Below the pieces are notes generated by a model. The model was not told where the DNA came from. It worked only from the letters and a program-made list of their open reading frames with translations, and did not search any database. From positions 1 to 39,273 of the forward strand of contig JAFAYM010000001.1 of the NCBI GenBank assembly GCA_019240395.1: a stretch of DNA of 39,273 nucleotides, read 5' to 3'. Below are positions 3,287 through 24,583 of the stretch, piece by piece; position 1 is the first letter of the stretch; every line of letters starts with the position of its first letter. This DNA comes from Acidisphaera sp. Its GTDB lineage: Bacteria; Pseudomonadota; Alphaproteobacteria; Acetobacterales; Acetobacteraceae. The position numbers and the translations under genes are program-made.

Positions 3287-4288
3287 TCACGGGATGCAAG
3301 AGCCGCCGGCCCTTGCCGGGTCGAGGGCGGAGCCCTCGCCTTGCTCCTTGATATACCCGACCGGCCGGCGCCAGCTGAGCTTGCCCAACCCGTTCGCCAG
3401 TATCAGCCGAAAGCGGATGCGGCGCTGGGAGGCGAACTCGAAGGTGAGTGCCGCGAGCGTCGCGCCGACGACGGTCTGGATCAGCCCCTTGGCGGTGAGA
3501 ATGGCAAATACCAGCCGCTTCCTCTCGGTGTTCTCGAGATGGATCGTCACGTAGTGCTGGGCCTCGCGCCGGGTGCGCAGCAGGCGGTAGGCGATGGCGG
3601 TGCGGTGCGGCAGCACGGTCTCGGTGACGCGGGCATCCGGCACCCAGATCAGGCGGCGTCCCTCGCGGTAGAGCCGGCAGAACAGCTCCTGGTCCTCGCC
3701 GCCGGCGTCGCCGAAGGCCAGGCTGAACGGCTCGGCGGCGGCGAAGCAGGTGGCGGCGACGAATATCGAGTTGCCGGTGCCGAGCCCCATCATCGGCTTG
3801 CCGAGATCGTTCAGCAGCCGCAGCTCGGCATCGGCCGGCAGCTGCAGGTCGCGCGCGAAGAAGCGCCCCTGCGGATCGTAGGCTGGGGCGCGTCCATCGG
3901 CGAAGACGGCGAGGCGGGGGCCGACGGCGATGTCCGCCCGGGTGCGGCGCAGGGCGGAGACCAGGGCGTCGGTCCAGCCGGGGTCGGCGACCTCGTCGTC
4001 GTCGATGAAGGCGACGTAGGTGCCCCGCGCGGCGGCGATGCCGGTGTTGCGGAGCGTCGACATGTTGCGCCTGGTGTCCTGGAGGTAGCGCACGGGAAAG
4101 GGCGCCTGGCCGGCGATGTGCCTGACCACGTCGCGGGCGCTCACCGTGGGGTGGTTGTCGACGACGATGATCTCGAAGCCGAGGTCGAGCGTGTTGCGCT
4201 GCGCCAGCACGGAACGGAGCGTCTGCTCGAGCGGCTCCAGCCGGTCGTAGGTGGCGATCAGGATGCTGATATCGGGAGTGGGCATCAT
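3287..4288 (-). CDS. Family 2 glycosyltransferase with repeat-encoded C-terminal tail
   Basis: Predicted cytoplasmic inverting GT-A glycosyltransferase adding a sugar to a polysaccharide or lipid-linked precursor; 333 residues. Seen: N-terminal nucleotide-binding start ISILIATYDRLEPLEQTL, IIVVDNHP, the metal-binding DDD in VAFIDDDEVADPGW near residue 100, GTGNSIF, and the acceptor/catalytic-base motif GGEDQELFCRL. Start ATG 4288 overlaps the stop of the upstream glycosyltransferase as ATGA, so translation is probably coupled. Compared with that paralogue, which ends GFIRER, this one reads GYIKEQ and then continues about 17 residues (GEGSALDPARAGGSCIP) encoded by a dispersed repeat. The sugar donor cannot be told from sequence. 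Confidence 0.88.
   Translation of the reverse strand: MMPTPDISILIATYDRLEPLEQTLRSVLAQRNTLDLGFEIIVVDNHPTVSARDVVRHIAGQAPFPVRYLQDTRRNMSTLRNTGIAAARGTYVAFIDDDEVADPGWTDALVSALRRTRADIAVGPRLAVFADGRAPAYDPQGRFFARDLQLPADAELRLLNDLGKPMMGLGTGNSIFVAATCFAAAEPFSLAFGDAGGEDQELFCRLYREGRRLIWVPDARVTETVLPHRTAIAYRLLRTRREAQHYVTIHLENTERKRLVFAILTAKGLIQTVVGATLAALTFEFASQRRIRFRLILANGLGKLSWRRPVGYIKEQGEGSALDPARAGGSCIP
3296..3349. repeat. Dispersed gene-3'-end repeat, copy 1 (two hairpins)
   Basis: Two adjacent hairpins: GCAAGAGCC/GGCCCTTGC (3296-3304 with 3308-3316, one mismatch) and CGAGGGC/GCCCTCG (3322-3328 with 3332-3338, perfect, loop GGA). The second carries the core GGGCRGAGCCCTCGCCTT that recurs at 16851 and 27511. 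Here it lies inside the 3' end of the minus-strand glycosyltransferase frame, between that gene and the convergent patatin pseudogene, where it may also act as a bidirectional terminator. Confidence 0.7.
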
Positions 4289-5241
4289 CGTTCCCGGATG
4301 AAGCCGATCGGCGTGCGCGCATAGGTGAGCTTGCCGAGGCCCTTGGCGATGCCGATGCGGTTGCCGACCTTGTCGCGGCGCAGGAACTCACCGTGCAGGA
4401 GATAGAGCGCGCCGTGCACGACGATCTGGCCGAGACCGATCGTCGCCACCTTCAGCCGGGCGAGCGCCGCGCTGTCGCTGTTGGCGATGCGGCTGGCGGC
4501 GTAGTGCTGCGACCCTCGCATCAGACGGGTGCGGATGTAGTCGTAGCGGGTGCGCGAGGCCTGCATGTATTCGCGCACGCGGGCGTCGGGGCACCAGACG
4601 AAGCGCTTTCCCGCGCGCGCCAGGCGGAATAGCAGCTCGGTGTCTTCGCCGCCGGCGTTTCCGAAGGCGGGGTCGAAGGGCTGCGGGTCGGCGAAGCAGG
4701 TTTCCATGCGGAAGATGGCGTTGCCGGAGCCGAGGCCTTTGCCGCGCCGGCGCAGGCGGCCGAACATGATGATCGGGGCGTCGCGAGGCATGCGGAAATC
4801 GAGGGTGAAATACCAGCCCTCGGGGTCCCAGTCCGGCGGCGCGCCGGTCTCGAATTCCGGGTATTTGGGGCCGAAGGCGGCATCCGCGCCGGTGCGATCG
4901 AGGCAGGCGACGAGATTGCCGATCCAGTCGGGCTCCGGCGCCTCGTCGTCATCGACGAAGGCGATGTAGCGGCTGTCACGCCCGGCATCGATGGCGGTGT
5001 TGCGGATCACCGAGATGTTGCGCACGGAATTGGCGACGTACTGCAGCGGTACCGGCGACGCGGCGGCGAGGCTTTGCACCAGCGTCTCCGCCAGCCGATC
5101 GGGATGGTTGTCCGCGACGATTATTTTCCAATGCAGCCCGTCGGGGACACGCTGCGCTACAGCGGCGCGCAGCGTGCGTTCCAGCAGGTCGACGCGGTCA
5201 TAGCTCAGCACGCCGATCGAGACGTCGTAGGCCTCGCTCAC
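4285..5241 (-). CDS. Family 2 glycosyltransferase
   Basis: GT-A fold glycosyltransferase of 318 residues, paralogous to the next gene downstream and probably acting on the same glycan. Motifs: VSIGVLSYDRVDLLERTL, IIVADNHPDRL, AFVDDDEAPEPDW (metal-binding Asp cluster), GSGNAIF and GGEDTELLFRLARAG. A GTG start at 5241 is preferred over the far-upstream ATG 5343, because the extra 34 residues would lie wholly inside the preceding sugar transferase gene, whereas GTG 5241 overlaps that gene's stop as GTGA. The stop in turn overlaps the ATG of the next gene, so the three genes form a tightly coupled minus-strand operon. Confidence 0.88.
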   Translation of the reverse strand: MSEAYDVSIGVLSYDRVDLLERTLRAAVAQRVPDGLHWKIIVADNHPDRLAETLVQSLAAASPVPLQYVANSVRNISVIRNTAIDAGRDSRYIAFVDDDEAPEPDWIGNLVACLDRTGADAAFGPKYPEFETGAPPDWDPEGWYFTLDFRMPRDAPIIMFGRLRRRGKGLGSGNAIFRMETCFADPQPFDPAFGNAGGEDTELLFRLARAGKRFVWCPDARVREYMQASRTRYDYIRTRLMRGSQHYAASRIANSDSAALARLKVATIGLGQIVVHGALYLLHGEFLRRDKVGNRIGIAKGLGKLTYARTPIGFIRER

Positions 5242-5900
5242 ACGCCGGTGCCCCGGAACACCACGGGGATGGTGCGCAGCAGAATCTTCAGGTCGAGCAT
5301 GAGCGACCAGTTGCGGATGTATTCGAGGTCCTTTGCCACCCATTCGTCATAGTCGGAAATGCGATGACGGCCCTCGATCTGCCAGAGGCAGGTGATGCCC
5401 GGTTTCACCTGCAGCTTCTGCTTCTGGTACTCGGTGAAGCGCTGGTATTCGTGCAGCCGCGGCGCCCGCGGCCCGACCAGGCTCAGATCGCCGACCAGCA
5501 CGCTCCACAGCTGCGGCAGCTCATCGAGGCTGTAGCGGCGGATCACCCGGCCGAGCGGCGTCACGCGCGGGTCGTCGGTGATCTTGAATGCCGGCCCGGT
5601 CATTTCGTTGCGCGCCCGCAGCTCGGCCTCCATGGCGGCGGCGTTGGCCACCATGGTGCGGAACTTGTAGCCGTCGAAGCGCCGTCCGCCCTCGCCCACC
5701 CAGTGGCAGACGTAGAAGACCGGCCCGGGCGAGCTCAGCTTCACCGCGATGGCGATGGCCAGCAGCAGCGGCGAAAGCACCACCAGCAGGATGGCCGCCA
5801 CGGTGGCATCGAACGCCCGCTTGATCCCCAGCCGCATGTCCCGGCCCGGCAGCAGCGCGCCCCGGCTCACATCCATCCCGTGCCCGCCCTTCGATCCCAT
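5238..5900 (-). CDS. Sugar-1-phosphate transferase (undecaprenyl-phosphate, WcaJ/ExoY type)
   Basis: Initiating monotopic phosphoglycosyl transferase: moves a sugar-1-phosphate from a nucleotide sugar onto undecaprenyl phosphate at the inner membrane, starting a polysaccharide repeat unit. Its 220 residues match the short form (catalytic domain only, no N-terminal multi-TM domain). Seen: an N-terminal hydrophobic segment (ATVAAILLVVLSPLLLAIAI), KFRTM, the Asp-Glu catalytic dyad in YSLDELPQLWSVLVGDLSLVGPR, and KPGITCLWQ. The start could be ATG 5900, the internal ATG that gives MDVSRGALL, or a later one; no strong ribosome site decides this. It heads the operon with the two GT2 genes and diverges from the wecG-like gene. 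Confidence 0.92.
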   Translation of the reverse strand: MGSKGGHGMDVSRGALLPGRDMRLGIKRAFDATVAAILLVVLSPLLLAIAIAVKLSSPGPVFYVCHWVGEGGRRFDGYKFRTMVANAAAMEAELRARNEMTGPAFKITDDPRVTPLGRVIRRYSLDELPQLWSVLVGDLSLVGPRAPRLHEYQRFTEYQKQKLQVKPGITCLWQIEGRHRISDYDEWVAKDLEYIRNWSLMLDLKILLRTIPVVFRGTGV

Positions 5901-5965
5901 CGGTAGGCAATGGTAACCCCTATCCTATAACGATCCCTTGCAGGGCACCACCGGAGGCAGAGGGC
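5901..5965. promoter_or_regulatory. Divergent promoter region of polysaccharide genes
   Basis: A 65-bp spacer between two divergently transcribed glycan genes. It is noticeably more AT-rich than its surroundings (TATCCTATAACG around 5921-5932), which fits overlapping -10 elements, and carries GGAGG at 5953-5957 ahead of the plus-strand ATG 5966. No clear -35 pair is visible, so exact promoters are not assigned. Confidence 0.4.
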
Positions 5966-6733
5966 ATGGACGGCAGTGCGGGGCACCCCGAGCACGCGGA
6001 GCGGGTGCGCTTCGCCGGGCTCGCCTTCGACCAGGTGGAGGTGGCCGAGGCGGTGGACCGCATCGCGGCGCGTTCGCCGGACCTGCCGTTCGCCTATGTC
6101 TCCACCCTGAATGCCGAGTTCGTCTGGCTGCGGCGTGTTCATCCGAGCGTCGATGACGTCATCGAGCAGGCCTGGCTGTCGACGCTGGACAGCCGCATCC
6201 TGCGCCGCATCGCCTCCTGGGCGGGGCTGGCCATCGTCTTCACCCCCGGCGCCTACATCGTCCGCGAGATGTTCCTGCGCGGCGTCATCGCCCGGGACGA
6301 CCGGCTCACCGTGCTCGGCGGCAACCCGAGGGCGCTGGCGATCCTGGCGGAGCGCTTCGGCATGCGCGGCTTCCAGCAGCACGTGCCCCCGATGGGCTTC
6401 ATCAATCAGCCTCAGGCCGTGCAGGCGGCCATCGACTACGTCATCGCCAACCCGGCACGCTTCGTCTTCATCGCCATGGGTCCGCCGCATTCCGACATGC
6501 TGGCGCGGATGATCGCCGAGACGGGGCGGGCGGTCGGCGTCGGCCTGTGCATCGGCAGCTCGCTCGACACGCTGGCCGGGCTGACGCCGCCGGCGCCGGA
6601 CTGGATGGAGCGAAACGGCCTGGTCTGGCTGTTCCGCCTGGCCCGCGAGCCGCGGCGGCTGTGGCGCCGCTACCTCAACCGCTCGCTGCGCGGCGTCGGC
6701 CTGGCGCTGCTGGAGGTGCTGCGGCGGCGGTGA
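5966..6733 (+). CDS. WecG/TagA/CpsF family glycosyltransferase
   Basis: GT26-family enzyme that adds the second sugar (classically N-acetylmannosaminuronate or N-acetylmannosamine) to an undecaprenyl-diphosphate-linked sugar on the cytoplasmic face. 255 residues, normal for the family. Seen: TLNAEFVWLRR, the STLDSRILRRIASWAG region, the glycine-rich LGGNPRALAIL block, AMGPPHSD in the place of the usual G-x-P-x-Q-E motif, and the C-terminal APDWMERNGLVWLFRLAREPRRLWRRYL block split here from its upstream DTLAG. The GGAGG site supports ATG 5966. It diverges from the initiating sugar transferase and probably completes the same pathway. It is convergent with the split transketolase, with only 13 bp between stops. 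Confidence 0.88.
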   Translation: MDGSAGHPEHAERVRFAGLAFDQVEVAEAVDRIAARSPDLPFAYVSTLNAEFVWLRRVHPSVDDVIEQAWLSTLDSRILRRIASWAGLAIVFTPGAYIVREMFLRGVIARDDRLTVLGGNPRALAILAERFGMRGFQQHVPPMGFINQPQAVQAAIDYVIANPARFVFIAMGPPHSDMLARMIAETGRAVGVGLCIGSSLDTLAGLTPPAPDWMERNGLVWLFRLAREPRRLWRRYLNRSLRGVGLALLEVLRRR

Positions 6734-6746
6734 GACGCGACCGCGG

Positions 6747-7724
6747 TCAGCCGCACGCGGCGCGGATCGCCTGCTCGATGCGCTCGGCGGTCAGGCCGTA
6801 TTTCTCCTGGAGAAAGCCGACCGATCCGCATTCGATGAAGCGGTCCGGCAGGCCGATACGCACCAGTGGGCGGGTCATGCCGCGCTCGAACAGGGTTTCC
6901 GCGACCAGGCTCGCCAGGCCACCGGTGACGACGTGGTTCTCGACGGTGATGACGCAGCGCACCTGGCTCGCCAGCTCGGCGACGGCATCCGCGTCGAAGG
7001 GCTTGAGCGTGGGTACGTGCAGCACCGCGGCCGCAATGCCGTCGCGCCCGACGGCTTCGGCGGCTTGCAGGGCGCGGCCGGTCATGAACCCGGTGCCGAT
7101 CAGCGCGACATCGCCGCCCTGCCGCAGCCTCCGGGCCTCGCCGATGGCGAAGCGGTACTGCGCGGCATCGAGGATGACCGGGACGCTGGCGCGCAGCAGG
7201 CGCATGTAGACCGGACCGTCATACGCGGCGATGGCGTGCGTCGCCTGCATGATGTCCGTCGCGTCGCAGGGATCGATCACCACCAGCCCGGGCACCATGC
7301 GCATCAGCGCCAGATCCTCGATCGCCTGGTGGGTGCCGCCATAACCGGTGGTCAGGCCGGGCAGGCCGGCGATGATCTTCACGTTCACCCGGCTGTGGGC
7401 GCAGGCGATGGCAATGTAGTCGTAGGCGCGCCGCGTCGCGAACACCCCGTAGGTCGTGCAGAACGGCGTCTTGCCGGCGCGCGCCAGGCCGGCCGAGACG
7501 GCGACCAGGTTCTGCTCGGCCATGCCGACGTTGAAGAAGCGCTCGGGAAAGGCGTCGCGGAACGGGTGGATGTCGGTGTATTTGCCGAGATCGGCGGTCA
7601 GCCCGACGATGTCCGGCCTGGCATGGCCGAGCTCGACGAGGGCGCGTCCGAACGGCGCGTCGACCGAGTGCCCGGCGACTCGTTCGGCCTCGCCCATCGC
7701 CAGGGTGCGGCCGGGCTCAGACAT
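6747..7724 (-). CDS. Transketolase-like, C-terminal (pyrimidine/transketolase_C) subunit
   Basis: Second half of a split thiamine diphosphate enzyme that transfers two-carbon ketol units between sugar phosphates or related ketoses. Its 325 residues cover the pyrimidine-binding and C-terminal domains. The catalytic Glu sits in FFNVGMAEQNLVAVSAGLA near residue 70, and the aromatic-rich TTYGVFATRRAYDYIAI stretch contacts the cofactor in this family. The start overlaps the end of the N-terminal subunit gene by 8 bp, implying coupled translation and a heteromeric enzyme. It ends a minus-strand operon with an SDR and two ABC permeases. It resembles the split transketolases found in apiose and similar pentose catabolic loci; 1-deoxyxylulose-5-phosphate synthase is excluded by length and context. 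Confidence 0.9.
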   Translation of the reverse strand: MSEPGRTLAMGEAERVAGHSVDAPFGRALVELGHARPDIVGLTADLGKYTDIHPFRDAFPERFFNVGMAEQNLVAVSAGLARAGKTPFCTTYGVFATRRAYDYIAIACAHSRVNVKIIAGLPGLTTGYGGTHQAIEDLALMRMVPGLVVIDPCDATDIMQATHAIAAYDGPVYMRLLRASVPVILDAAQYRFAIGEARRLRQGGDVALIGTGFMTGRALQAAEAVGRDGIAAAVLHVPTLKPFDADAVAELASQVRCVITVENHVVTGGLASLVAETLFERGMTRPLVRIGLPDRFIECGSVGFLQEKYGLTAERIEQAIRAACG

Positions 7725-8559
7725 GATCGCCCTCCAGCTCGGCCGCCAGCGCGCCCCATTCGTCGGCTTCGACGCGGACGAAATGCGCCTTCTCCCGGCG
7801 CTCCAGGGTGGGGACGCCCTTGCCGGGCAGGGTGCGCAGCACGATCGCCTTGGGACGGCCGTTGGCGCTGCGCGCGCCGTGCAGGGCGTTGACGATCTCG
7901 TCCATGCGGTTGCCGTCGATCTCGGCGGTCTCCCAGCCGAAGGCGCGCCATTTCTCGGCCACCGGCTCCAGGTCGAGCACGATCGCGCCGTCGGCCTGGA
8001 TGCCGTTGCAGTCGATCAGCGCCACCAACCTGTCGAGGCGGAAGTGCGGCGCCGCCATCGCCGCCTCCCAGGTCGCGCCCTCCTGCATCTCGCCGTCCGA
8101 CAGCTCGACGAAGACGCGCGCCGGCCGGCCGTCGAGCCGCAGGCCGAGCGCCATGCCGATCCCCTGGCCGAGGCCGTGGCCGAGCGAGCCGCCGATCACC
8201 TCGACGCCGGGCGTGGTGTCCAGCGTGCTCATGTCGAGCCGGCTGGCATCGGCGCCGTAGGTCGCGAGTTCCTCGATCGGCAGCACGCCGGCCTCGGCCA
8301 GCGCCGCCCAGAGTGCCAGGGAGTAGTGGCCGGTGGAGAGCAGGAACCGGTCGCGCTCCGGCCAGGCGGGATCGGCCGGGTCGTAGCGCAACTCGTGGAA
8401 ATAGAGGGCGGCCAGCAGGTCGGCGATGCCGAGGCCCTGGCCGATATAGCCTTGGCCCAGCCGGCTCGCCATCGCCAGCATGTGGCGCCGCAGCTGCTTC
8501 GCCTTGTCCCGGAGAAAGCCGATCGGCGCATCGTCGACCGGGGTGTTGCGGACCGCCAT
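7717..8559 (-). CDS. Transketolase-like, N-terminal (ThDP pyrophosphate-binding) subunit
   Basis: First half of the split transketolase; 280 residues. The ThDP diphosphate/Mg motif is visible as ELSDGEMQEGATWEAA followed about 30 residues on by LVALIDCNGIQADG, the GDG-N(x)-N pattern with SDG in place of GDG. Other family signatures: GHYSLALWAALAEAG, EVIGGSLGHGLGQGIGMALG. It lies 3 bp after the SDR gene stop and overlaps the C-terminal subunit gene. With its partner it should form a functional enzyme of about 605 residues in total. The substrate is not readable from sequence; the neighbouring acid-sugar dehydratase and transporter suggest a sugar-derived ketose. Confidence 0.9.
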   Translation of the reverse strand: MAVRNTPVDDAPIGFLRDKAKQLRRHMLAMASRLGQGYIGQGLGIADLLAALYFHELRYDPADPAWPERDRFLLSTGHYSLALWAALAEAGVLPIEELATYGADASRLDMSTLDTTPGVEVIGGSLGHGLGQGIGMALGLRLDGRPARVFVELSDGEMQEGATWEAAMAAPHFRLDRLVALIDCNGIQADGAIVLDLEPVAEKWRAFGWETAEIDGNRMDEIVNALHGARSANGRPKAIVLRTLPGKGVPTLERREKAHFVRVEADEWGALAAELEGDHV

Positions 8560-8562
8560 GCG

Positions 8563-9360
8563 TCAGTCCTTGTCCAGGCCGCCCGAGAGGTTCAGCCGTT
8601 CGGCGGTGAGATAGGCGGGCGCATCGAGGGCCAGCCAGACCACGCCCTCGGCCACTTCCTCGCAGGAGGTCCGCCGGCCCAGCGGGATGCGCGCCGTGCG
8701 CTCGGCGAGATAGGCCGCCATGTCGTCGCGCCCGTCCAGCCGGGCGAACAGCGCCTCCGTGCTGCGCTGCATCGGCGTGTCCATCATGCCCGGGGCGATG
8801 CTGTTGACCAGCACGCCGTGTTTCGCGAGTGCGGCCGCGCCGGCACGGGTCACGGCGTCCACCCCGGCCTTGCTCGCGGCGTAGGCGGTGTAGTTCGGCA
8901 GCGCCATGCGCGAGGCCGGCGAGGTGACGTTGATGATGCGGCCGCGCCCCTGCGCCGCCATGTGGCGCCCGGCGGCGGCGCAGGCCAGCGCCAGGGCCCG
9001 CAGGTTCAGGCCGAGCGTGCGGTCCCAGGTGGCGGCGGTCATTTCGAGGAATGCCTCGCCGGTGCCGTAGCCGGCGTTGTTGACGAGGATGTCGAGGCCC
9101 CCGAGGCGCTCCACGGTCGCCCGTACCGCGCGCTCCGCTGCATCGGCGGCCAGCAGGTCGATCTCCAGGAAGACGGCGTCGGGCCCGAGCGCGGCGCAGT
9201 CCTGCCGCGTCGCCTCGCCGGCGGCGCGATCGATATCGACGATCGCCACGGCGACGCCGCGCTGCGCCAGGCCCAGCGCGACGGCGCGGCCGAGGCCGCC
9301 GGCCGCCCCGGTGACGAGGGCACGAAGCGGCGGGCTGTCCGGGCTTGCCGCTGCGCTCAT
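8563..9360 (-). CDS. SDR family oxidoreductase
   Basis: Classical short-chain dehydrogenase/reductase, 265 residues, NAD(P)-dependent. Seen: nucleotide-binding TGAAGGLG near residue 18, NNAGYG near residue 95, and the catalytic S-x12-YxxxK (SPASRMALPNYTAYAASK). The C-terminal APGMMDTPMQRSTEALFARL region resembles polyol/sugar dehydrogenases of the family, a weak resemblance only. It lies in the operon between the ABC permeases (13 bp upstream) and the split transketolase (3 bp downstream), so it likely oxidises a hydroxyl of the imported compound or of the dehydratase product to the ketone used by the transketolase. This role is inferred. Confidence 0.9.
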   Translation of the reverse strand: MSAAASPDSPPLRALVTGAAGGLGRAVALGLAQRGVAVAIVDIDRAAGEATRQDCAALGPDAVFLEIDLLAADAAERAVRATVERLGGLDILVNNAGYGTGEAFLEMTAATWDRTLGLNLRALALACAAAGRHMAAQGRGRIINVTSPASRMALPNYTAYAASKAGVDAVTRAGAAALAKHGVLVNSIAPGMMDTPMQRSTEALFARLDGRDDMAAYLAERTARIPLGRRTSCEEVAEGVVWLALDAPAYLTAERLNLSGGLDKD

Positions 9361-9373
9361 CGCATTCTCCCGT

Positions 9374-10051
9374 TCATCGGTGTCCGCGCCGGCGCCGGCG
9401 CGGACGGCGCAGATCGAGGCGCCGCTCGAGGAACTGGCTGGTCAGCGACAGCGGCCAGCACAGCACGAAATAGATGCCGCCGACCACGCCGAACACCAGC
9501 AGCGGCCGGTAGGTCGCGTTGTTGACGAGCTGGCCGGTGCGCGTCAGCTCGACGAAGCCGATCACCGAAGTCAGCGACGTGCTCTTGACCACCTGCACCA
9601 GGAAGCCGGTGGTCGGCGGCAGGGCGATGCGGCAGGCCTGCGGCAGGATGATCAGCCGCAGCTGCTGGCCGTAGCTGAGCGCCAGGCTGCGCCCGGCCTC
9701 CCATTGCGTCACCGGCACTGCCTCGATGGAGCCGCGCCAGGTCTCGCCGAGGAAGGCGCTGGTGTAGAGCGTCAGGCCGAGCGCCGCGGCGCTCCAGGGA
9801 TCGACGGTGAAGCCCAGAAGATTGGCGCCGAAGAACACGACGAACAGCTGCAGCAGCAGCGGGGTTCCCTGGAAGAGCTGGACGTAGCCGCTCATCGCCC
9901 AGCGCAGCGGGCGCACCGGCGCCGTGCGCAGGACGGCGACGACCAGCCCGACCACGCCCCCGCCCAGAAAGGCGACGGCGGACAGCAACACCGTCCAGCG
10001 CGCCGCCAGGATCAGCAGCCACACATCACCCAGAGAAAATCCGCGGATCAC
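9374..10051 (-). CDS. Amino-acid-type (HAAT/PAAT) ABC transporter permease 2
   Basis: Inner-membrane permease of the polar-amino-acid uptake family, 225 residues with about five hydrophobic segments. Seen: the N-terminal YVQLFQGTPLLLQLFVVFFG block characteristic of HisM/GlnP-like permeases and the EAA loop (EAGRSLALSYGQQLRLIILPQACR) that contacts the ATPase. The GTG start at 10051 is chosen because it overlaps the stop of permease 1 (GTGA) and gives a normal-length protein; frames extending to 11482 would run antisense through the binding-protein gene. It forms a heterodimer with the preceding permease. No ATPase gene accompanies it. Confidence 0.9.
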   Translation of the reverse strand: MIRGFSLGDVWLLILAARWTVLLSAVAFLGGGVVGLVVAVLRTAPVRPLRWAMSGYVQLFQGTPLLLQLFVVFFGANLLGFTVDPWSAAALGLTLYTSAFLGETWRGSIEAVPVTQWEAGRSLALSYGQQLRLIILPQACRIALPPTTGFLVQVVKSTSLTSVIGFVELTRTGQLVNNATYRPLLVFGVVGGIYFVLCWPLSLTSQFLERRLDLRRPRRRRRGHR

Positions 10052-10713
10052 GGAACGCGCGCCAGGATCAGCCGCCCCGCCGCCGCGAACGCCACGCGGA
10101 ACGCCAGCGACAGCGCGAGGTAGAGCGCCAGGACGGTGAAATAGATCTCGAAGGCGCGGAAGGTGCGGGCCTGTATCGAGTTCGCCGCCGCCGTCAGCTC
10201 CTCGGCGCCGATCACCGAGACGATGCTGGTGCCGAGCATCAGCAGGATGAACTGGCTGGCGAGCGCGGGATACACCGCGCGCAGAGCGGGCCGTATCACG
10301 ATGAGGCAAAAAACCTGGAAGGGATGCAGGCCGAGCGCCAGCCCGGCTTCCGTCTGTCCTTCGGGAACCGCCTCGATGCCGGCGCGCACGATCTCGATCG
10401 CATACGCCCCGAGATTGACGGTCAGCGCGACGAGTGCCGCCGCATCCGGATCGAACCGCACCCCGATCTCCGGCAGGCCGAGATAGATGACCAGCAGCTG
10501 CACCAGAAAGGGCGTGTTGCGGATCAGCTCGACATAGGCGCGGATCGGCCATTGCAGGGCGGGCGGCCCCTCGGTGTCGCCCCAGGCGCCGGCGACGCCG
10601 ATCGCCAGGCCGAGCACCATGGCCAGCGCGGAAAGCCGGATCGTCGCCCACAGGCCATGCAGCAGCAGCGGCCAGTCCTGCCAGACCGTCCCGAACTGGA
10701 AGACGTAGTCCAC
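10048..10713 (-). CDS. Amino-acid-type (HAAT/PAAT) ABC transporter permease 1
   Basis: Inner-membrane permease, 221 residues, of the histidine/glutamine/opine transporter family. The conserved YVELIRNTPFLVQLLVIYLGLP stretch (in two parts, RNTPFLVQ and LLVIYLG) follows the first transmembrane pair, and the EAA loop reads EAGLALGLHPFQVFCLIVIRPALR. It is the first gene of the minus-strand catabolic operon and diverges from its probable cognate binding-protein gene across a 133-bp spacer. Family 3 transporters usually take amino acids but some import sugar acids or opines, which would fit the dehydratase next door. Confidence 0.9.
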   Translation of the reverse strand: MDYVFQFGTVWQDWPLLLHGLWATIRLSALAMVLGLAIGVAGAWGDTEGPPALQWPIRAYVELIRNTPFLVQLLVIYLGLPEIGVRFDPDAAALVALTVNLGAYAIEIVRAGIEAVPEGQTEAGLALGLHPFQVFCLIVIRPALRAVYPALASQFILLMLGTSIVSVIGAEELTAAANSIQARTFRAFEIYFTVLALYLALSLAFRVAFAAAGRLILARVP

Positions 10714-10846
10714 CGCCGCCGCGTCCTCCCGCCGCGCGCCTGCGCGTCTGCACTTTCACCAGCGCCATGTCGGGGATAACGTGCCTGCGTGCAGCCAGGC
10801 GCGCAACCCGCGCACGCGGTGCCGGACGAAGAACATGGGGGAAGCG
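10714..10846. promoter_or_regulatory. Divergent regulatory spacer of the sugar-acid-like locus
   Basis: This 133-bp region separates the permease operon from the binding-protein operon and should hold both promoters. It contains a 12-bp palindrome CCGCG-CA-CGCGG at 10808-10819, a possible operator, and GGGGGAAG just before ATG 10847. No convincing -35/-10 pair could be read, and no regulator gene lies alongside. Confidence 0.35.
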
Positions 10847-11626
10847 ATGCCGAGACTGCTGGGCTGGGTGATGGCCGGCCTGATCGCCTTCGTGGCGGGC
10901 GCCGCGCAGGCGCAGACCGTCGATGACATCATCAAGCGCGGCAAGGTGCTGGTCGCCGTGGACCCGACCAGCGCGCCGTTCGGCACCACCGGTCCGGACG
11001 GCCAGCCCGACGGCTACGACGTCGATGTCGCGAAGCTGGTCGCCAGATACATGGGCGTGCAACTCGAGCTGGTGCCGGTCACCTCGACGAACCGCATTCC
11101 CTATCTGCTGACCAACCGCGTCGACATGGTGATCTCGCTCTTCGCCATCACCCCCGAGCGGGCGCTGCAGGTCTGGTTCTCCGATCCCTACGCCGCGGTC
11201 GGCACCATCGTCACGGCGCGCCGCGACAAGGCCATCAAGGACATCGCCGACCTCAAGGGGCTGCGGGTCGGCGTGCCGCGCGGCACCATTCCCGACATGC
11301 TGCTGACCAAGATGGCGCCCGATGCGCAGGTCGTGCGGTTCGACGACGAGGCGACCTCGATACAGGCGCTCGTCACCGGCCAAGTGGACGCGCTCGGCAG
11401 CAGCACCACGGCGTTGCGGGTGATCAACCGCGGCGGTGCCGAGAAGCAGTACGAGCGCAAGATCACGCTGGTGCAGAACCATTTCGGCATCGGCGTCCGG
11501 CGCGGCCAGATCGACCTGCTGCGCTGGCTGGACACCTTCGTCTATGCCATCCGCAACAACGGCGAGCTCGACGCGATCAGCGAGAAATGGACGGGCGAGA
11601 AAGCCGGCAAGCTGCCGAGCTTCTGA
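10847..11626 (+). CDS. Family 3 extracellular solute-binding protein
   Basis: Periplasmic substrate receptor of the amino-acid type ABC transporter encoded divergently; 259 residues. An N-terminal signal peptide (MPRLLGWVMAGLIAFVAGAAQA, probable cleavage before QTVDD) precedes the family 3 start DIIKRGKVLVAVDPTSAPFGT. Further signatures: GYDVDVAKLVARYMGV, ITPERALQVWFSDPY and DLKGLRVGVPRGT. ATG 10847 is preferred because of the adjacent GGGGGAAG; ATG 10835 in the same frame is also possible, while the upstream 10781 start is unlikely. Its stop overlaps the start of the dehydratase gene (TGATG), so receptor and enzyme are cotranslated. Confidence 0.9.
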   Translation: MPRLLGWVMAGLIAFVAGAAQAQTVDDIIKRGKVLVAVDPTSAPFGTTGPDGQPDGYDVDVAKLVARYMGVQLELVPVTSTNRIPYLLTNRVDMVISLFAITPERALQVWFSDPYAAVGTIVTARRDKAIKDIADLKGLRVGVPRGTIPDMLLTKMAPDAQVVRFDDEATSIQALVTGQVDALGSSTTALRVINRGGAEKQYERKITLVQNHFGIGVRRGQIDLLRWLDTFVYAIRNNGELDAISEKWTGEKAGKLPSF

Positions 11627-12795
11627 TGGCGAAGGCGTCCCTCGCGGACTGCCGGATCACCGCGGTGACCGCCTATGTCGTGGGCATGCGCTGGCGCAAC
11701 TGCGTGTTCGCCCATGTCGAGACCGATGACGGCATCACCGGCGTCGGCGAGGGCTCGCTGGAATACCAGCCGCAGGCCGTGGCCGCCGCCATCGACCAGT
11801 TGGCGGCGCGCTACGCCATCGGCCGCTCCGCCTTCGCCATCGAGAAGCTCTGGTGGGACATCCTGCGCAACGAGTTCGCCCGCGGGCCGATCATCAACAG
11901 CGCCGCCGCGGCGATCGAGATCGCGCTCTGGGACATCGTCGGCAAGGCGCTCGGCCGCCCGGTGCACCAGCTGCTCGGCGGGCGGGTGCATGACCGGCTC
12001 CCCGCCTATGCCAATGCCTGGTACGGCGCCGGCGCCGCCCCGCAGGAGATCGGCGAGGCGGCGCGGGCGGCGGCGGCGAAGGGCTATCGCGGCCTGAAGT
12101 TCGATCCGTTCGAGGCGGCCGGACGCGATCCCGAGCCGGCCGCGCTCCGCCGTGCCTTCGACGTGGTGGCGGCGGTGCGCGACGCAGTCGGCCCCGATGT
12201 CGACCTGATGATCGACGCGCACGGCCGCTTCAGTCCGGGCTCGGCCATCGCCATCGCCCGCGAGCTCGAGCCGCACCGTCTGTTCTGGCTGGAAGAGCCG
12301 GTCGATCCCGAGAACGCCGCGATGCTGGCGGCGGTCGGGCGCAGCATTCCGATGCGGCTGGCCACCGGCGAGCGCTGCGCCAGCCGCCATCTCGCGGCGG
12401 GGCTGCTCGAGACCCATGAGGTCGACGTGCTGCAGCCCGACATCATCCATGTCGGCGGCATTCTGGAGGCCAAGAAGATCGCGGCGATGGCGGACGCGGC
12501 GTACACGCCGGTGTCGTTTCACAACCCGTTCGGCCCGGTGGCGACGGCGGCGGCGGTGCAGCTCGACGCCTGCACGACCAATTTCATCATGCAGGAATCT
12601 TTCTGCGAGTACGACGTCGCGCATCGCTTCGACCTTGTCGAGCATGCGCCCCGCCCGGTCGGCGGGCACTACGACATCCCCGAGCGTCCCGGGCTCGGGG
12701 TGGGTGAATTCCTGCCCGAAGCGGCCCGCGCCCATCCCTTCGAGCCGGACGCCTTTCTTCCGCTGTTCACCGACCGCTGGTCGGCGCGTTTCTAG
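11626..12795 (+). CDS. Enolase-superfamily acid-sugar dehydratase, D-galactonate dehydratase-like
   Basis: Mandelate racemase/muconate lactonizing enzyme family protein, 389 residues, predicted to dehydrate an aldonate-type sugar acid to a 2-keto-3-deoxy acid. Predicted Mg ligands D197, E223 and E249 and catalytic histidines H199 (DAHGRF) and H299 (SFHNPFGP) show the same relative spacing (2, 24, 26, 50 residues) as the known ligands and acid/base residues of E. coli DgoD. K158 in LKFDPF ends the second barrel strand. Start ATG 11626 overlaps the TGA of the binding-protein gene. Related subgroups (gluconate, arabinonate, mannonate dehydratases) share much of this pattern, so the exact acid is not assigned. 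Confidence 0.85.
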   Translation: MAKASLADCRITAVTAYVVGMRWRNCVFAHVETDDGITGVGEGSLEYQPQAVAAAIDQLAARYAIGRSAFAIEKLWWDILRNEFARGPIINSAAAAIEIALWDIVGKALGRPVHQLLGGRVHDRLPAYANAWYGAGAAPQEIGEAARAAAAKGYRGLKFDPFEAAGRDPEPAALRRAFDVVAAVRDAVGPDVDLMIDAHGRFSPGSAIAIARELEPHRLFWLEEPVDPENAAMLAAVGRSIPMRLATGERCASRHLAAGLLETHEVDVLQPDIIHVGGILEAKKIAAMADAAYTPVSFHNPFGPVATAAAVQLDACTTNFIMQESFCEYDVAHRFDLVEHAPRPVGGHYDIPERPGLGVGEFLPEAARAHPFEPDAFLPLFTDRWSARF

Positions 12796-19069: not shown

Positions 19070-19903
19070 TCAGTAGCTCAGCCGAGCGACGGCGCGCAGC
19101 TCCTCGGGCGTGCTGGTGCCGAAGCCGAAGAATTCGAGATAGGCCGGGATCATCTCGAACAGCATGTCCGCGCCGACCTGCACCGGGCAGCCCTTGTCGC
19201 GGGCGGCGCGCAGCAGCGGGGTGAACTCCTCCTTCATCACCACCTCGCCGACGAACGTGCCGGGCGCCACACGGTCGATGTCGACCGGCAGCTGGTCGCC
19301 CTCCTTCATGCCCATCGGCGTCGCGTTGACGACGATGTCGTAGCCCGCCGGATCGTCCGATCCGGTCACCACCTGAAGCCCGGAATAGTGCGCCCGCAGC
19401 CGCTCGGCGAGCCCCTCCGCCGAGGCGGCGTGCACATCGTAAAGGCCGATCGCCGCCAGGCCCGACGCGGCGAGAGACGCGGCGATCGCCGAGCCGACGC
19501 CGCCGGCGCCGACCACCAGGGCCCGCGCGCCGGCGACCCTCTGGCCCTTGCGCTCGACGCCGCGCACGAAGCCGCTGCCGTCGAACATGTCGCCGAGCAG
19601 CGAGCCGTCCGGGCGCTTCAGCACCGCGTTGCACGAGCCGGCGATCCGCGCCGTGGTGGTCAGCTCGTCGACCAGCCGCGTCGTCGTCACCTTGTGCGGC
19701 ATCGTCACCAGGGCGCCGTGCAGCGTGGTGATGCGGAACAGGTTGCGGAACAGCCCTTCGTAGTCCTCGGGCAGCACGCCCAGCGGCACCACGACGGCGT
19801 CGATGCCCTGCTGCTCGAACCACGGATTGTAGATCATCGGCGCCTTGAACGACGCCGTGGGGTAGCCGAGGTGGGCGACGACCTGGCCGCGCCCGGTGAT
19901 CAT
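19070..19903 (-). CDS. Shikimate dehydrogenase-like oxidoreductase (divergent AroE family)
   Basis: NAD(P)-dependent dehydrogenase of the AroE/YdiB family, 277 residues. Kept: the catalytic Lys in TMPHKVTTTRLVDEL, Asn in GSCNAV, the catalytic Asp in GDMFDGSGF, the Rossmann GAGGVGSA and NATPMGM. Changed: the two serines that bind shikimate carboxylate (S14 and S16 in E. coli AroE, HSKSP) are F19 and A21 here (SFKAP), and the Gln of the C-terminal GMLVAQ motif is not kept. Start ATG 19903 overlaps the BKACE stop (ATGA). In a quinate/protocatechuate operon it could be the quinate/shikimate dehydrogenase, but these changes point to a different or modified hydroxy acid. Confidence 0.85.
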   Translation of the reverse strand: MITGRGQVVAHLGYPTASFKAPMIYNPWFEQQGIDAVVVPLGVLPEDYEGLFRNLFRITTLHGALVTMPHKVTTTRLVDELTTTARIAGSCNAVLKRPDGSLLGDMFDGSGFVRGVERKGQRVAGARALVVGAGGVGSAIAASLAASGLAAIGLYDVHAASAEGLAERLRAHYSGLQVVTGSDDPAGYDIVVNATPMGMKEGDQLPVDIDRVAPGTFVGEVVMKEEFTPLLRAARDKGCPVQVGADMLFEMIPAYLEFFGFGTSTPEELRAVARLSY

Positions 19904-20742
19904 GCAGCGAGGCCCGGGGCGGCGATGCCCAGGGCCGCCCGCGCCTCGGCCGGCGTCGCCGGGCGGCGGCCGTGCCGCCCCGCCAGTTCGGCCGCCATCG
20001 CCACCAGCTCGGCATTGCTGCCGGCCAGCCGGTCGCGGCTGATCCGGATGTTGTCCTCGAGACCGGTGCGCACGCCGTCGCCGTTGCGCGCCAGCACCCA
20101 CTCCATCACCCGGGACTGGTTGACGCCGATCCCCGCCGCCGTCCACGTCGCCTTCGGCAGCACCCGGCGGATCTCGCTCAGCATCATGTCGAGCAGATGC
20201 TCCTCGGCGGGCAGCGCGTTCTTCACCCCCATGACGACCTGCACGTGCGGCCGCTCGTCCATCAGCCCGGCATCGATCAGCCGGCGGGCGCCGTGGATGT
20301 GGCTGAGATCGAACAGCTCGATCTCCGGCCGCACGTTGAATGTCTGCATCCTGGTGGCGAGCTCGGTCACCAGGGCGGCGCCGTTCTCATAGACGATGGT
20401 CGGGAAGTTGACCGACCCCGTGGACAGCGACGCCATGTCCGGGCGCAGGTCAAGCGCATTGCCGCGCGCCGACGGATCGCGTCCGCGCCCGCCGGTGGAG
20501 AACTGGACGATCATGCCGGGACAGTGCTTGCGCACGCCTTCCTGCACCTGGGCGAACAGCGCCGGGTCGCTGGAGGGACTCTCGTCGGGGTTGCGGACGT
20601 GGATGTGGACCAGGCTGGCGCCCGCCTCGAACGCGGCCTGCGTGCTTTCCACCTGCTCGGCCGGCGTGGTCGGCACGGCGGGATTGTCCTTCTTGCGCGG
20701 CACCGAGCCGGTGATGGCGACGGCGATGACGACGGGGTTCAT
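19900..20742 (-). CDS. Beta-keto acid cleavage enzyme (BKACE, DUF849 family)
   Basis: Zinc-dependent TIM-barrel enzyme that condenses a beta-keto acid with acetyl-CoA to give acetoacetate and a new acyl-CoA; 280 residues, normal length. Seen: N-terminal VVIAVAITGSVPRKKDNPAVP, PTTPAEQVESTQAAFEAGA, the Zn ligands H46 and H48 in LVHIHVRNP, FSTGGRGRD, and the C-terminal GDGVRTGLEDNI. The family founder is Kce of lysine fermentation, and other members act on beta-ketoadipate and similar acids. It lies 9 bp after pcaG and overlaps the AroE-like gene, so beta-ketoadipate or another protocatechuate-derived keto acid is a reasonable inferred substrate. Confidence 0.92.
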   Translation of the reverse strand: MNPVVIAVAITGSVPRKKDNPAVPTTPAEQVESTQAAFEAGASLVHIHVRNPDESPSSDPALFAQVQEGVRKHCPGMIVQFSTGGRGRDPSARGNALDLRPDMASLSTGSVNFPTIVYENGAALVTELATRMQTFNVRPEIELFDLSHIHGARRLIDAGLMDERPHVQVVMGVKNALPAEEHLLDMMLSEIRRVLPKATWTAAGIGVNQSRVMEWVLARNGDGVRTGLEDNIRISRDRLAGSNAELVAMAAELAGRHGRRPATPAEARAALGIAAPGLAA

Positions 20743-20751
20743 GGCAACACC

Positions 20752-21378
20752 TCACACGTCGAAGAACACGGTTTCAGCAGGGCCTTGCAGATGGATATCG
20801 AAGACATACGCCGGGCCGCCGTCGCGGTCCTCGCGTCGGGCGATCAAGGTGCCGCGGCGTTCGGCCTCGATGATGTTGAGCACGGGATCTCCGGCGTTCG
20901 CCTCCGCCTCGTCGCCGAAATACATCCGGGTGGCGAGCCCGATGTTGATGCCGCGCGCCGCCAGCCAGACATTGACGTGCGGCGCCATCGGCTTGTGGCC
21001 GTGCCGGCCGATCACCCGACCCGGCTTGACGGTCTCGAAGACATAGACGCCGGTGTCGAACGCCGTGCCGGTGCGGCCCCAGCCGCGAAAGCCCGCGTCG
21101 AGCGACTTCTCCTGCCGGTCGGCCGGCGAATTGTAGCGGCCGGCGGCGTTCGCCTGCCAGATCTCCAGCATGATGTCCCGGCAGACTTGGCCGAGGCCGT
21201 CGAACACCCGGCCCTCGATGCGGATGCGCTGACCCGGCGTCTGCGGCCCGGCCAGCACATTGCCGAACGGGCGCTCGAAGATGTCGAACCCGGCCTGGTG
21301 CGGGATGAGGCCGATATGGACATACGGCCCGGCGGTCTGCGACGGCGTTTCCTGCAGATACTGCATGGTGTCCAGCAT
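20752..21378 (-). CDS. pcaG: Protocatechuate 3,4-dioxygenase, alpha subunit
   Basis: Structural partner of the iron-bearing beta subunit in intradiol cleavage of protocatechuate to 3-carboxy-cis,cis-muconate. 208 residues. Seen: TPSQTAGPYVHIGLIP at the N-terminus, IRIEGRVFDGLGQ, EIWQANAAGRYNSP, the APHVNVWLAARGINIGLATRMYF core (in parts APHVNVWLAARG and LATRMYF) where the beta-type His ligands are replaced, as usual for alpha subunits. The start ATG 21378 matches the family N-terminus (MLDTMQYLQETPSQT); an upstream frame start at 21420 would overlap pcaH. It lies 4 bp after pcaH. Confidence 0.95.
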   Translation of the reverse strand: MLDTMQYLQETPSQTAGPYVHIGLIPHQAGFDIFERPFGNVLAGPQTPGQRIRIEGRVFDGLGQVCRDIMLEIWQANAAGRYNSPADRQEKSLDAGFRGWGRTGTAFDTGVYVFETVKPGRVIGRHGHKPMAPHVNVWLAARGINIGLATRMYFGDEAEANAGDPVLNIIEAERRGTLIARREDRDGGPAYVFDIHLQGPAETVFFDV

Positions 21379-21382
21379 CGCC

Positions 21383-23975
<2,593 letters not shown>

Positions 23976-23981
23976 GGCTAT

Positions 23982-24137
23982 CTAGTGGTCCGATCGCTGC
24001 AGTCGGTTCCCGACTGCAGCGTGAATCGGCCCACAAACAAAATAACTGGTGGTGCGATTCACGATGCAGATGGCGCACCGGCCGTTGTTGCGATCCAACA
24101 ATGCTGGGGGAGCCATCTGCATCGATCGCACCACTAG
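23982..24137. repeat. REPIN/MITE-like double-hairpin element with terminal inverted repeats
   Basis: The ends are 15-bp inverted repeats, CTAGTGGTCCGATCG (23982-23996) and CGATCGCACCACTAG (24123-24137), matching at 14 of 15. The left half (23985-24034) folds on itself: CTGCAGTCGG-TTC-CCGACTGCAG (23997-24019) extended outward to GTGGTCCGAT/ATCGGCCCAC. The right half (24046-24137) folds too: ATGCAGATGGC (24064-24074) with GCCATCTGCAT (24112-24122), extended outward by GGTGGTGCGAT/ATCGCACCAC and with an inner TTGTTG/CAACAA. An A-rich linker (AAACAAAATAA) joins the halves. CGTGAATCG/CGATTCACG (24020-24028, 24055-24063) offers an alternative central stem. No coding sense was seen. Confidence 0.85.
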
Positions 24138-24583
24138 GTCGCCTTTTCGTCCATCAGCCTAGCCAGACGCCGCAGGGCCAACAAGTAGCCCTGCGTGCCG
24201 AAGCCGGCGATCACCCCGTCGGCGCGGGTGGAGACGAAGGAGTGGTGGCGGAATTCCTCCCGCTTGTGGACGTTGGAGATGTGCACCTCGATGACGGGGT
24301 GATCGAAGGCGTTCAACGCGTCCAGGATGGCGACGGAATAATGCGTGAACGCCGCCGGGTTGATGACGATCCCGCCGGCGCTTTCCCGCGCCTCATGGAT
24401 CCAGTCGACGATTTCGTATTCGCGGTTGCTCTGGTGGAAGCGCAGCTCGAGCCCCAGCTCCGTCGCGAGCGCGCGGCAGTCACGCTCGACATCGGCCAGG
24501 GTCTCGTGCCCGTAGATGTGCGGCTGGCGCTTGCCCAGCAGGTTCAGGTTGGGTCCGTTCAGCAGGAAGACGAGGCGGCTCAT
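24134..24583 (-). CDS. aroQ: 3-dehydroquinate dehydratase, type II
   Basis: Converts 3-dehydroquinate to 3-dehydroshikimate; dodecameric type II enzyme, 149 residues. Seen: [18 protein letters not shown] with catalytic R19 and Y24, [34 protein letters not shown], and [17 protein letters not shown] with the catalytic His. In this operon its role is probably catabolic (QuiB-like) rather than biosynthetic. The TAG stop at 24136-24134 lies inside the right inverted repeat of the hairpin element, so the element has probably set the C-terminus. Start lies 7 bp after the MFS gene stop. Confidence 0.96.

Follow-up and report, generated by a model that had tools for sequence, protein, structure and literature searches.

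A candidate sugar-acid catabolic gene cluster of Acidisphaera with a split transketolase of unusual active site

A divergent cluster of seven genes was recognized at positions 6747–12795 of a 39,273-nt stretch of Acidisphaera sp. DNA (contig JAFAYM010000001.1), hereafter called the window. One arm encodes a short-chain dehydrogenase/reductase (SDR), the two chains of a split transketolase (TktN and TktC) and two permeases of an ATP-binding cassette (ABC) transporter, and the other encodes a solute-binding protein and a DgoD-like dehydratase. The core SDR-TktN-TktC-dehydratase is found in five loci, and this recurrence is more than chance; that the two arms form one system is supported. The transketolase belongs to a widespread clade in which most residues contacting the phosphate and the donor are replaced, and it most likely works on unphosphorylated substrates. 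It is proposed, with about even confidence, that the cluster is a non-phosphorylative sugar-acid catabolic module, in which the SDR and the dehydratase would make a keto-sugar acid and the transketolase would cleave it without phosphate. The sugar-acid reading is partly supported, and now rests on recurrence and on an active-site signature instead of a single locus.

The gene cluster and its recurrence

Gene calls, a Pfam scan and reading confirmed the seven genes and the divergent arrangement that had been described in the sequence-only reading, and the Pfam domains of all seven proteins each exceed their cut-off. The features are as follows.

6747..7724, minus strand: TktC, split transketolase chain with pyrimidine-binding and C-terminal domains; PF02779 (Transket_pyr), PF02780 (Transketolase_C)
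7717..8559, minus strand: TktN, split transketolase chain binding thiamine diphosphate; PF00456 (Transketolase_N)
8563..9360, minus strand: SDR oxidoreductase, proposed sugar-acid (C5-type) dehydrogenase; PF00106 (adh_short), PF13561
9374..10051, minus strand: HAAT-type ABC permease B; PF00528 (BPD_transp_1), TIGR01726 above cut-off
10048..10713, minus strand: HAAT-type ABC permease A; PF00528 (BPD_transp_1), TIGR01726 above cut-off
10714..10834, no strand: inter-operon region, by position a putative shared control region
10835..11626 (start at 10835 or 10847), plus strand: family 3 solute-binding protein; PF00497 (SBP_bac_3), 124.8 bits
11626..12795, plus strand: DgoD-like enolase-superfamily dehydratase; PF02746 (MR_MLE_N), PF13378 (MR_MLE_C)

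The last 8 bases of tktN are also the first of tktC, and the ATG of the dehydratase gene overlaps the TGA of the binding-protein gene (TGATG). Neither the family scans nor reading of the genes called from 5.2 to 14.4 kb showed a kinase, an aldolase or an ABC ATPase, which bears out the earlier remark that a kinase and a 2-keto-3-deoxygluconate (KDG) aldolase are lacking.

A TktC search at E 1e-60 gave a match in 34 of the 249 genomes of the window's family, and the regions around 20 of the 35 non-window matches were examined. One of these regions, L029, comes from a different genus of the same family and contains all seven genes together. SDR, TktN, TktC, binding protein, dehydratase, a GntR-like LacI regulator and a beta-propeller lactonase (PF10282) follow one another on one strand, and both permease genes are divergent, starting beside the SDR gene. 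Identity to the window proteins (tblastn) is 81% for the dehydratase, 77% for the binding protein, 73% for TktN, 67% for TktC and 65% for the permeases; the SDR proteins are 69% identical over the full length.

Linkage was also approached from the dehydratase. A profile scan of 84,980 species genomes revealed 13 loci, of which L053 repeats the contig of L029. At E 1e-120, a match was present in six of 385 genomes sampled from the class and in three of 395 sampled from the order, the window's own genome being counted in each; L103 and L104 were added from these samples after repeats were removed. Among the resulting 16 distinct dehydratase loci, window included, SDR-TktN-TktC adjoins the dehydratase in five: the window, L029/L053, L055 (Tagaea), L056 and L103. 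They come from no fewer than four genera and three families in the genome set. L103 belongs to another family, and there a tripartite ATP-independent periplasmic (TRAP) transporter follows the SDR-TktN-TktC-dehydratase row. The core is thus these four genes, since the transporter varies between loci. No kinase gene was seen in any of the five. Linkage cannot be judged at L054, where the contig begins 331 bases before the dehydratase gene. The sequence-only reading had pointed to separate arms in relatives as evidence that would speak against it; the opposite was found, with all seven genes in L029 and the core in three more genomes.

An exchange of transketolase cassettes between dehydratase lineages was considered and rejected. 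The dehydratase data reject a grouping of the window, L056 and L103 (approximately unbiased test, p 0.00014). The nearness of these three in the transketolase tree is weakly supported (40 to 75), and thus no conflict between the trees is shown.

Active site of the split transketolase

Textbooks treat transketolase as an enzyme of phosphorylated sugars. Among solved structures, both chains of the window enzyme are closest to the split-gene transketolase of Carboxydothermus hydrogenoformans: TktC to 6yaj (split-chain C subunit, E 1.4e-74), and TktN to 6yak (split-chain N subunit, E 2.6e-69). The layout is that of a split-chain enzyme, with adjacent genes, the PP domain on TktN, and the Pyr and C-terminal domains on TktC. 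Each half scores 230–233 bits against the NCBIfam transketolase equivalog cut-off of 488, in models built for the whole chain.

The chain pairs of 32 clade members were aligned with E. coli TktA, four full-length relatives, the Carboxydothermus enzyme and three other split enzymes; residue numbers are those of E. coli. The thiamine diphosphate and metal residues H66, D155, N185 and E411 are kept in 32/32 clade pairs, together with H261, H473 and R520. The donor-contact residues H26, H100 and D469 are not kept. H26 is replaced by Tyr and H100 by Ser in every pair, and at D469 a Tyr or a deletion is seen, depending on gap placement. The phosphate-site residues R358, S385 and H461 are kept in none of the clade rows examined, only the fourth contact, R520, being retained: S385 is changed to Tyr (31/32) or Phe (1/32), and H461 to Leu, Met or Asn (32/32). 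R358 is absent from 26/26 clade rows with a residue there in one alignment and from 14/14 in another; the statement rests on these two, because column 358 of the 32-pair alignment is gapped in the clade and in the Carboxydothermus enzyme. Columns 385 and 461 lie beside gaps in the 26-row alignment and are placed better in the other two. In the window, TktN carries H26Y and H100S and keeps H66, D155, N185 and H261, while TktC carries S385Y, H461L and R358D, has lost D469, and keeps E411, H473 and R520.

The two nearest ordinary split enzymes, from Carboxydothermus and Fusobacterium, keep H26, H100, S385, H461 and D469. In two further control split enzymes, from Sinorhizobium and Streptomyces, H26, H100 and H461 are kept and position 469 is occupied by Tyr; that from Streptomyces has Leu at 385 in addition. 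A second unusual transketolase, of full length, lies beside the split genes at L037 (14283-16271), L038 (8108-10099), L041 and L044, with Ile or Trp at R358 and Pro or Ala at S385. Since the controls and these full-length relatives share single changes, it is the combination that marks the clade, not each change. An Arg at E. coli position 264 was considered as a clade mark for carboxylate binding and rejected; it is present in 30/32 clade pairs, yet three of the four adjoining full-length transketolases carry it too, so it is not clade-specific.

The Carboxydothermus enzyme (PMC7661550) has the same two-chain layout, and its cofactor residues are kept in the window clade too. It retains H26, H100, R358, S385, H461 and D469, all six of which are changed or lost in the window clade. 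Engineered E. coli transketolases offer a second comparison. The triple mutant R358I/H461S/R520Q converts unphosphorylated 5-keto-D-gluconate to tartaric semialdehyde, with formaldehyde used as an acceptor in that system (PMC12016104), and another engineered enzyme carries S385Y/D469T/R520Q (PMC5073344); R358, H461, S385 and D469 are thus positions changed naturally in the clade as well. H26Y reverses enantioselectivity, giving 88% R instead of the S product, and D469Y gives 68% R (PMC3657141). The two R520Q variants are single-chain, laboratory-made enzymes, whereas the clade keeps R520 and adds H26Y and H100S. Engineers altered single positions for unphosphorylated substrates, and the clade carries several such changes together. 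A transketolase rebuilt in this way would explain the absent kinase, and the unusual active site would account for it better than a missing gene. The sequence-only reading makes no mention of this active site.

Dehydratase, transporter and gene sets of relatives

Residues D183, H185, E209, E235, D258, H285 and E310 of E. coli DgoD align with D197, H199, E223, E249, D272, H299 and E324 of the window dehydratase. All seven share an offset of exactly 14, so the claim of a ligand spacing identical to DgoD holds. D183, E209 and E235, which we take to be the metal ligands, and H185 and H285, presumably catalytic, have their equivalents kept in the window and in 15 other aligned dehydratase loci. The enzyme is 37% identical to DgoD and stays below the curated cut-offs for PRK14017 (galactonate dehydratase; 287.8/311 bits) and for the gluconate/galactonate dehydratase model (297.1/750). 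The SDR shows 37% identity to E. coli KduD and 31% to IdnO, and misses the cut-off of TIGR01832 (NCBIfam kduD, 2-keto-3-deoxygluconate 5-dehydrogenase) with 148.9 bits against 338.85.

The permeases score 90.7 and 100.4 bits against the HAAT model TIGR01726 (cut-off 42.2), and no ATPase gene accompanies them in the window cluster, nor is one found in L029 from the permeases to the genes that follow. In the binding proteins of the window and L029, the carboxylate-site Arg is kept and the amino-site Asp position is Ser. As a control, 30 loci of the same genome were taken, of which phmmer finds 27, including the window's own, and three were dropped. The Asp is kept in 10 of the 26 other family 3 binding proteins and missing in 16. 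The Asp to Ser change was accordingly rejected as proof of a ligand other than an amino acid, and the binding-protein sequence argues weakly for a sugar acid over an amino acid.

The cluster is probably a sugar-acid system, because the DgoD residues are kept and the dehydratase is accompanied by GntR/IdnR-like LacI regulators in three loci, a lactonase in one and a TRAP transporter in one. The LacI regulators of L029 and L055 are closest to the gluconate-type GntR, below its cut-off (283.8 and 285.0/400 bits), and L054 has a 69% relative. GarL-like aldolases 3' of the dehydratase in other loci, and TRAP transporters, are further signs. Tartrate dehydrogenase genes were found at L054 (2550-3626) and L055 (9507-10583), scoring 552.6 and 560.9 bits against TIGR02089 (cut-off 470.4). 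The gene follows LacI in L054 and lies 2.6 kb farther in L055, and an acyl-CoA dehydrogenase-like gene is next. In L055, the genes directly upstream of the SDR (2-1839) belong to glutathione-dependent formaldehyde oxidation; their products, S-(hydroxymethyl)glutathione dehydrogenase and S-formylglutathione hydrolase, both exceed their cut-offs. Formaldehyde as a substrate or product is a possible lead at L055, from one genome.

Downstream of the dehydratase, one of three sets seems to take over: an aldolase, an E1 complex, or SDR plus split transketolase. In L062-L065, a D-2-hydroxyacid dehydrogenase and a GarL/HpcH-type aldolase follow the dehydratase (aldolase tested in L065, the rest by eye). 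The aldolase of L063 is cut by the contig end, and an SDR gene comes after the aldolase where the contigs of these loci continue. With an aldolase next in line, a 2-keto-3-deoxy acid would be a fitting product of the dehydratase. In L057-L061, the dehydratase is accompanied by a TRAP transporter and D-2-hydroxyacid dehydrogenases (families tested in L061, the rest by eye), and in L061 (3674-6085) a fused E1 alpha-E1 beta-lipoyl protein of 803 aa and an SDR lie upstream, apparently in place of the split transketolase. D-2-hydroxyacid dehydrogenases also lie beside the dehydratase in L104 (by eye). In the dehydratase tree, L056 falls among the E1-linked loci and L103 among the aldolase-linked ones, with support 100 each.

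SDR adjoins TktN/TktC in all 20 clade regions examined, on the opposite strand in L039, so that SDR and transketolase are a module even without the dehydratase. Sixteen of these regions have SDR-TktN-TktC and no dehydratase cassette, and are designated as group B. A TRAP-type binding protein is present in 10 of the 14 group B regions read by eye (Pfam-confirmed in L034), and an LtnD/GarR-like dehydrogenase in four, scored below cut-off in L037 and L047 (292.2 and 300.6/350 bits). L034 also encodes a glycerate 2-kinase-like protein. A weak dehydratase-like match was seen in one of the 19 regions other than L029. In group A (L030-L032, L049), the split transketolase also belongs to this clade and is accompanied by two FGGY-type kinases, a HAD phosphatase, a lactonase, a glycerol dehydrogenase and an SDR, near CoA-transferase or thiolase genes. 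Sets of LysR, TktN, TktC, SDR and TRAP are carried on plasmids of Agrobacterium, Azospirillum, Azoarcus and Sinorhizobium; TktN matches 206 of 72,556 plasmid records at E 1e-40, a count that may include ordinary split enzymes.

Several other loci deserve mention. A second SDR-TktN-TktC set of the same genome lies at the end of contig C115 (L048, 15477-17991), cut by the contig end, with transketolase chains 48% and 55% identical. L046 (2908-9060) is a group B cassette with its own divergent HAAT-type permeases and family 3 binding protein, a second case of such a transporter. On a Streptomyces plasmid (L110, 1161-4314), a split transketolase lies with a DegT-type aminotransferase and a RimK-type ligase, as if for secondary metabolism. 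Within the window, the cluster is adjoined by polysaccharide genes at 3287-6733 (two glycosyltransferase-like genes, a bacterial sugar transferase and a WecG/TagA-type glycosyltransferase). A quinate/shikimate to protocatechuate set occupies 19070-24583 on the minus strand, consisting of a shikimate dehydrogenase-like protein, BKACE, two intradiol dioxygenase subunits, a TIM-barrel and HPPD-like fusion, and a type II dehydroquinase; an MFS-like transporter adjoins it (by reading).

Proposed pathway, alternatives and relation to known systems

In the proposed pathway, an acid sugar would enter through the ABC transporter in the window, or through the TRAP transporter in the relative. The DgoD-like dehydratase would convert it to a 2-keto-3-deoxy acid, and the KduD/IdnO-like SDR would oxidize the hydroxyl beside the terminal CH2OH to give an alpha-hydroxyketone. 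Starting from a hexonate, the product would be 2,5-diketo-3-deoxyhexonate, or, with the SDR as the first enzyme, 5-ketohexonate. Cleavage by the split transketolase would then fall between the carbonyl carbon and the one bearing the hydroxyl, and the two-carbon ketol would go to an unphosphorylated aldehyde; in the window group, 2,5-diketo-3-deoxyhexonate would yield a C4 keto-aldehyde acid and the C2 unit. In group B, SDR and transketolase alone could turn a pentonate into tartronate semialdehyde and a tetronate into glyoxylate, products that would fit the GarR/LtnD-like and glycerate kinase-like neighbours. The cleavage reaction, the order of SDR and dehydratase, and the identities of the sugar acid and the acceptor are inferred here.

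Several observations weigh against this proposal. Its support consists of gene content, linkage, and conserved or lost residues. An enzyme for the leftover aldehyde acid, and the ketol acceptor, were not found in the window cluster. Transketolase genes are absent from the sequence examined in 10 of the 16 dehydratase loci, several of them on short contigs, and the sole genome of the same genus (72% complete) gave no TktC match at E 1e-60. The signature is also partly shared: the Tyr at the D469 position occurs in two of the four control split enzymes, and the full-length transketolases beside four group B loci lack R358 and S385, with H26, H100 and H461 kept. Arg520, which we take to be one phosphate contact of ordinary transketolase, is kept throughout the clade; therefore, some anion may still bind there, and the residue may serve a carboxylate.

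The last observation, with the retention of H261 and H473 and the pair of FGGY-type kinases that accompanies such a split transketolase in group A, is what would favour an ordinary transketolase acting on phosphorylated sugars, the kinase being encoded elsewhere in the genome. This is very improbable, given that R358, S385, H461, H26 and H100 are changed clade-wide while ordinary split enzymes keep them, and that the five dehydratase-linked loci show no kinase gene. A different reaction is conceivable as well. Ordinary transketolase uses His100 to contact the C1 hydroxyl of the donor, and the Ser found there throughout the clade would permit a donor without this hydroxyl. The thiamine enzyme could then decarboxylate a 2-keto acid, such as the dehydratase product, and join the rest to an aldehyde, like 1-deoxyxylulose-5-phosphate synthase or pyruvate dehydrogenase E1. 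The TktC score of 200 bits against dxs and the E1 alpha-beta-lipoyl protein that takes the place of the transketolase beside the dehydratase (L061 by family, L057 by reading) point in this direction. Such a ligation is hardly sensible in a catabolic operon, however, H473 is kept, and the module occurs without the dehydratase in the 16 group B loci, so that the donor need not be the dehydratase product. It is considered a rather unlikely explanation.

The same group B loci, with the LtnD/GarR-like dehydrogenases of L037 and L047 and the glycerate 2-kinase-like protein of L034, would suit an order in which the intact acid is met first by SDR and transketolase, from 5-ketohexonate to tartaric semialdehyde and from shorter homologues to tartronate semialdehyde or glyoxylate, the dehydratase working later or in parallel. 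The tartrate dehydrogenases near the LacI genes of L054 and L055 would suit this order and a tartaric semialdehyde product, and 5-keto-D-gluconate is a proven donor of the engineered enzyme (PMC12016104). On the other hand, the dehydratase stands in a row with the transketolase in five loci, the aldolase after it in L062-L065 fits a 2-keto-3-deoxy product, and reading of the loci of the window, L029, L056 and L103 showed no tartrate dehydrogenase. This order is unlikely, if worth keeping in mind. Finally, the transporter could be an ordinary polar amino-acid importer lying here by chance, and the system SDR, TktN, TktC and dehydratase alone. The permeases and binding protein are HAAT-type by family, the Ser at the amino-site position is not telling when only 10 of 26 other binding proteins of the genome keep the Asp, and the transporter is the variable part, being TRAP in L103 and absent beside the L055 core as read. 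In L029, however, the binding-protein gene lies between TktC and the dehydratase, the permease genes start beside the SDR, and all three transporter proteins are 65-77% identical between the window and L029. A chance neighbour is an improbable explanation.

The earlier description of an undescribed sugar-acid/ketose system is retained as far as the linked arms, the sugar-acid signs and the missing kinase and aldolase are concerned; its apiose/apulose frame is not. In the apiose pathway, a two-subunit apulose-4-phosphate transketolase, AptA/AptB, is encoded in a sugar operon and a kinase is needed. The window cluster has no kinase and its transketolase clade has lost phosphate-site residues, and therefore apiose/apulose, named before as the closest precedent, is a poor one and was rejected as a frame; the comparison is by description, not by sequence. 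The E. coli dgo operon, with its DgoD-type galactonate/gluconate dehydratase, resembles the cluster in that all seven compared DgoD residues are kept. It pairs DgoD with a 2-keto-3-deoxygalactonate (KDGal) kinase and aldolase, neither of which the window cluster has, and the low identity and missed family cut-offs set the two enzymes apart. The sulfo-transketolase pathway with SqwGH (PMC11659671) is a catabolic operon in which a split transketolase draws C2 units from a ketose without a sugar kinase. It differs in the sulfonate on the ketose, in glyceraldehyde 3-phosphate as the acceptor and, as described there, in having no dehydratase; this likeness too is by description, not sequence. No paper describing the cassette was found in searches of an open-licence library, subscription papers being mostly outside that search, and the word 'transketolase' is absent from the main text of PMC9007349.

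A wider proposal is put forward tentatively, with slightly less than even confidence. The clade would be a family of natural ketol transferases that work without phosphate and may be stereo-inverted, with H26Y, H100S, S385Y, H461L and the loss of R358 and D469 as native features, and their substrates would be unphosphorylated keto-sugar acids supplied by the partner SDR. Together with the dehydratase they would make up an undescribed non-phosphorylative pathway for sugar acids. Where it is missing, as in the LysR-SDR-TktN-TktC-TRAP sets of rhizobia, Azospirillum, Azoarcus and others, they would make up a related pathway of wide occurrence. A transketolase that cleaves keto-gluconate has been sought for tartrate formation, and the clade would be its counterpart in nature. 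If this is true, it bears on the open question of a transketolase cleaving 5-keto-D-gluconate en route to tartrate, as raised in PMC11066805. A natural phosphate-free transketolase would also be a ready biocatalyst. Many operons annotated merely as 'transketolase' would gain a function, and the clade, if it proves phosphate-free, would be a new functional family of transketolase.

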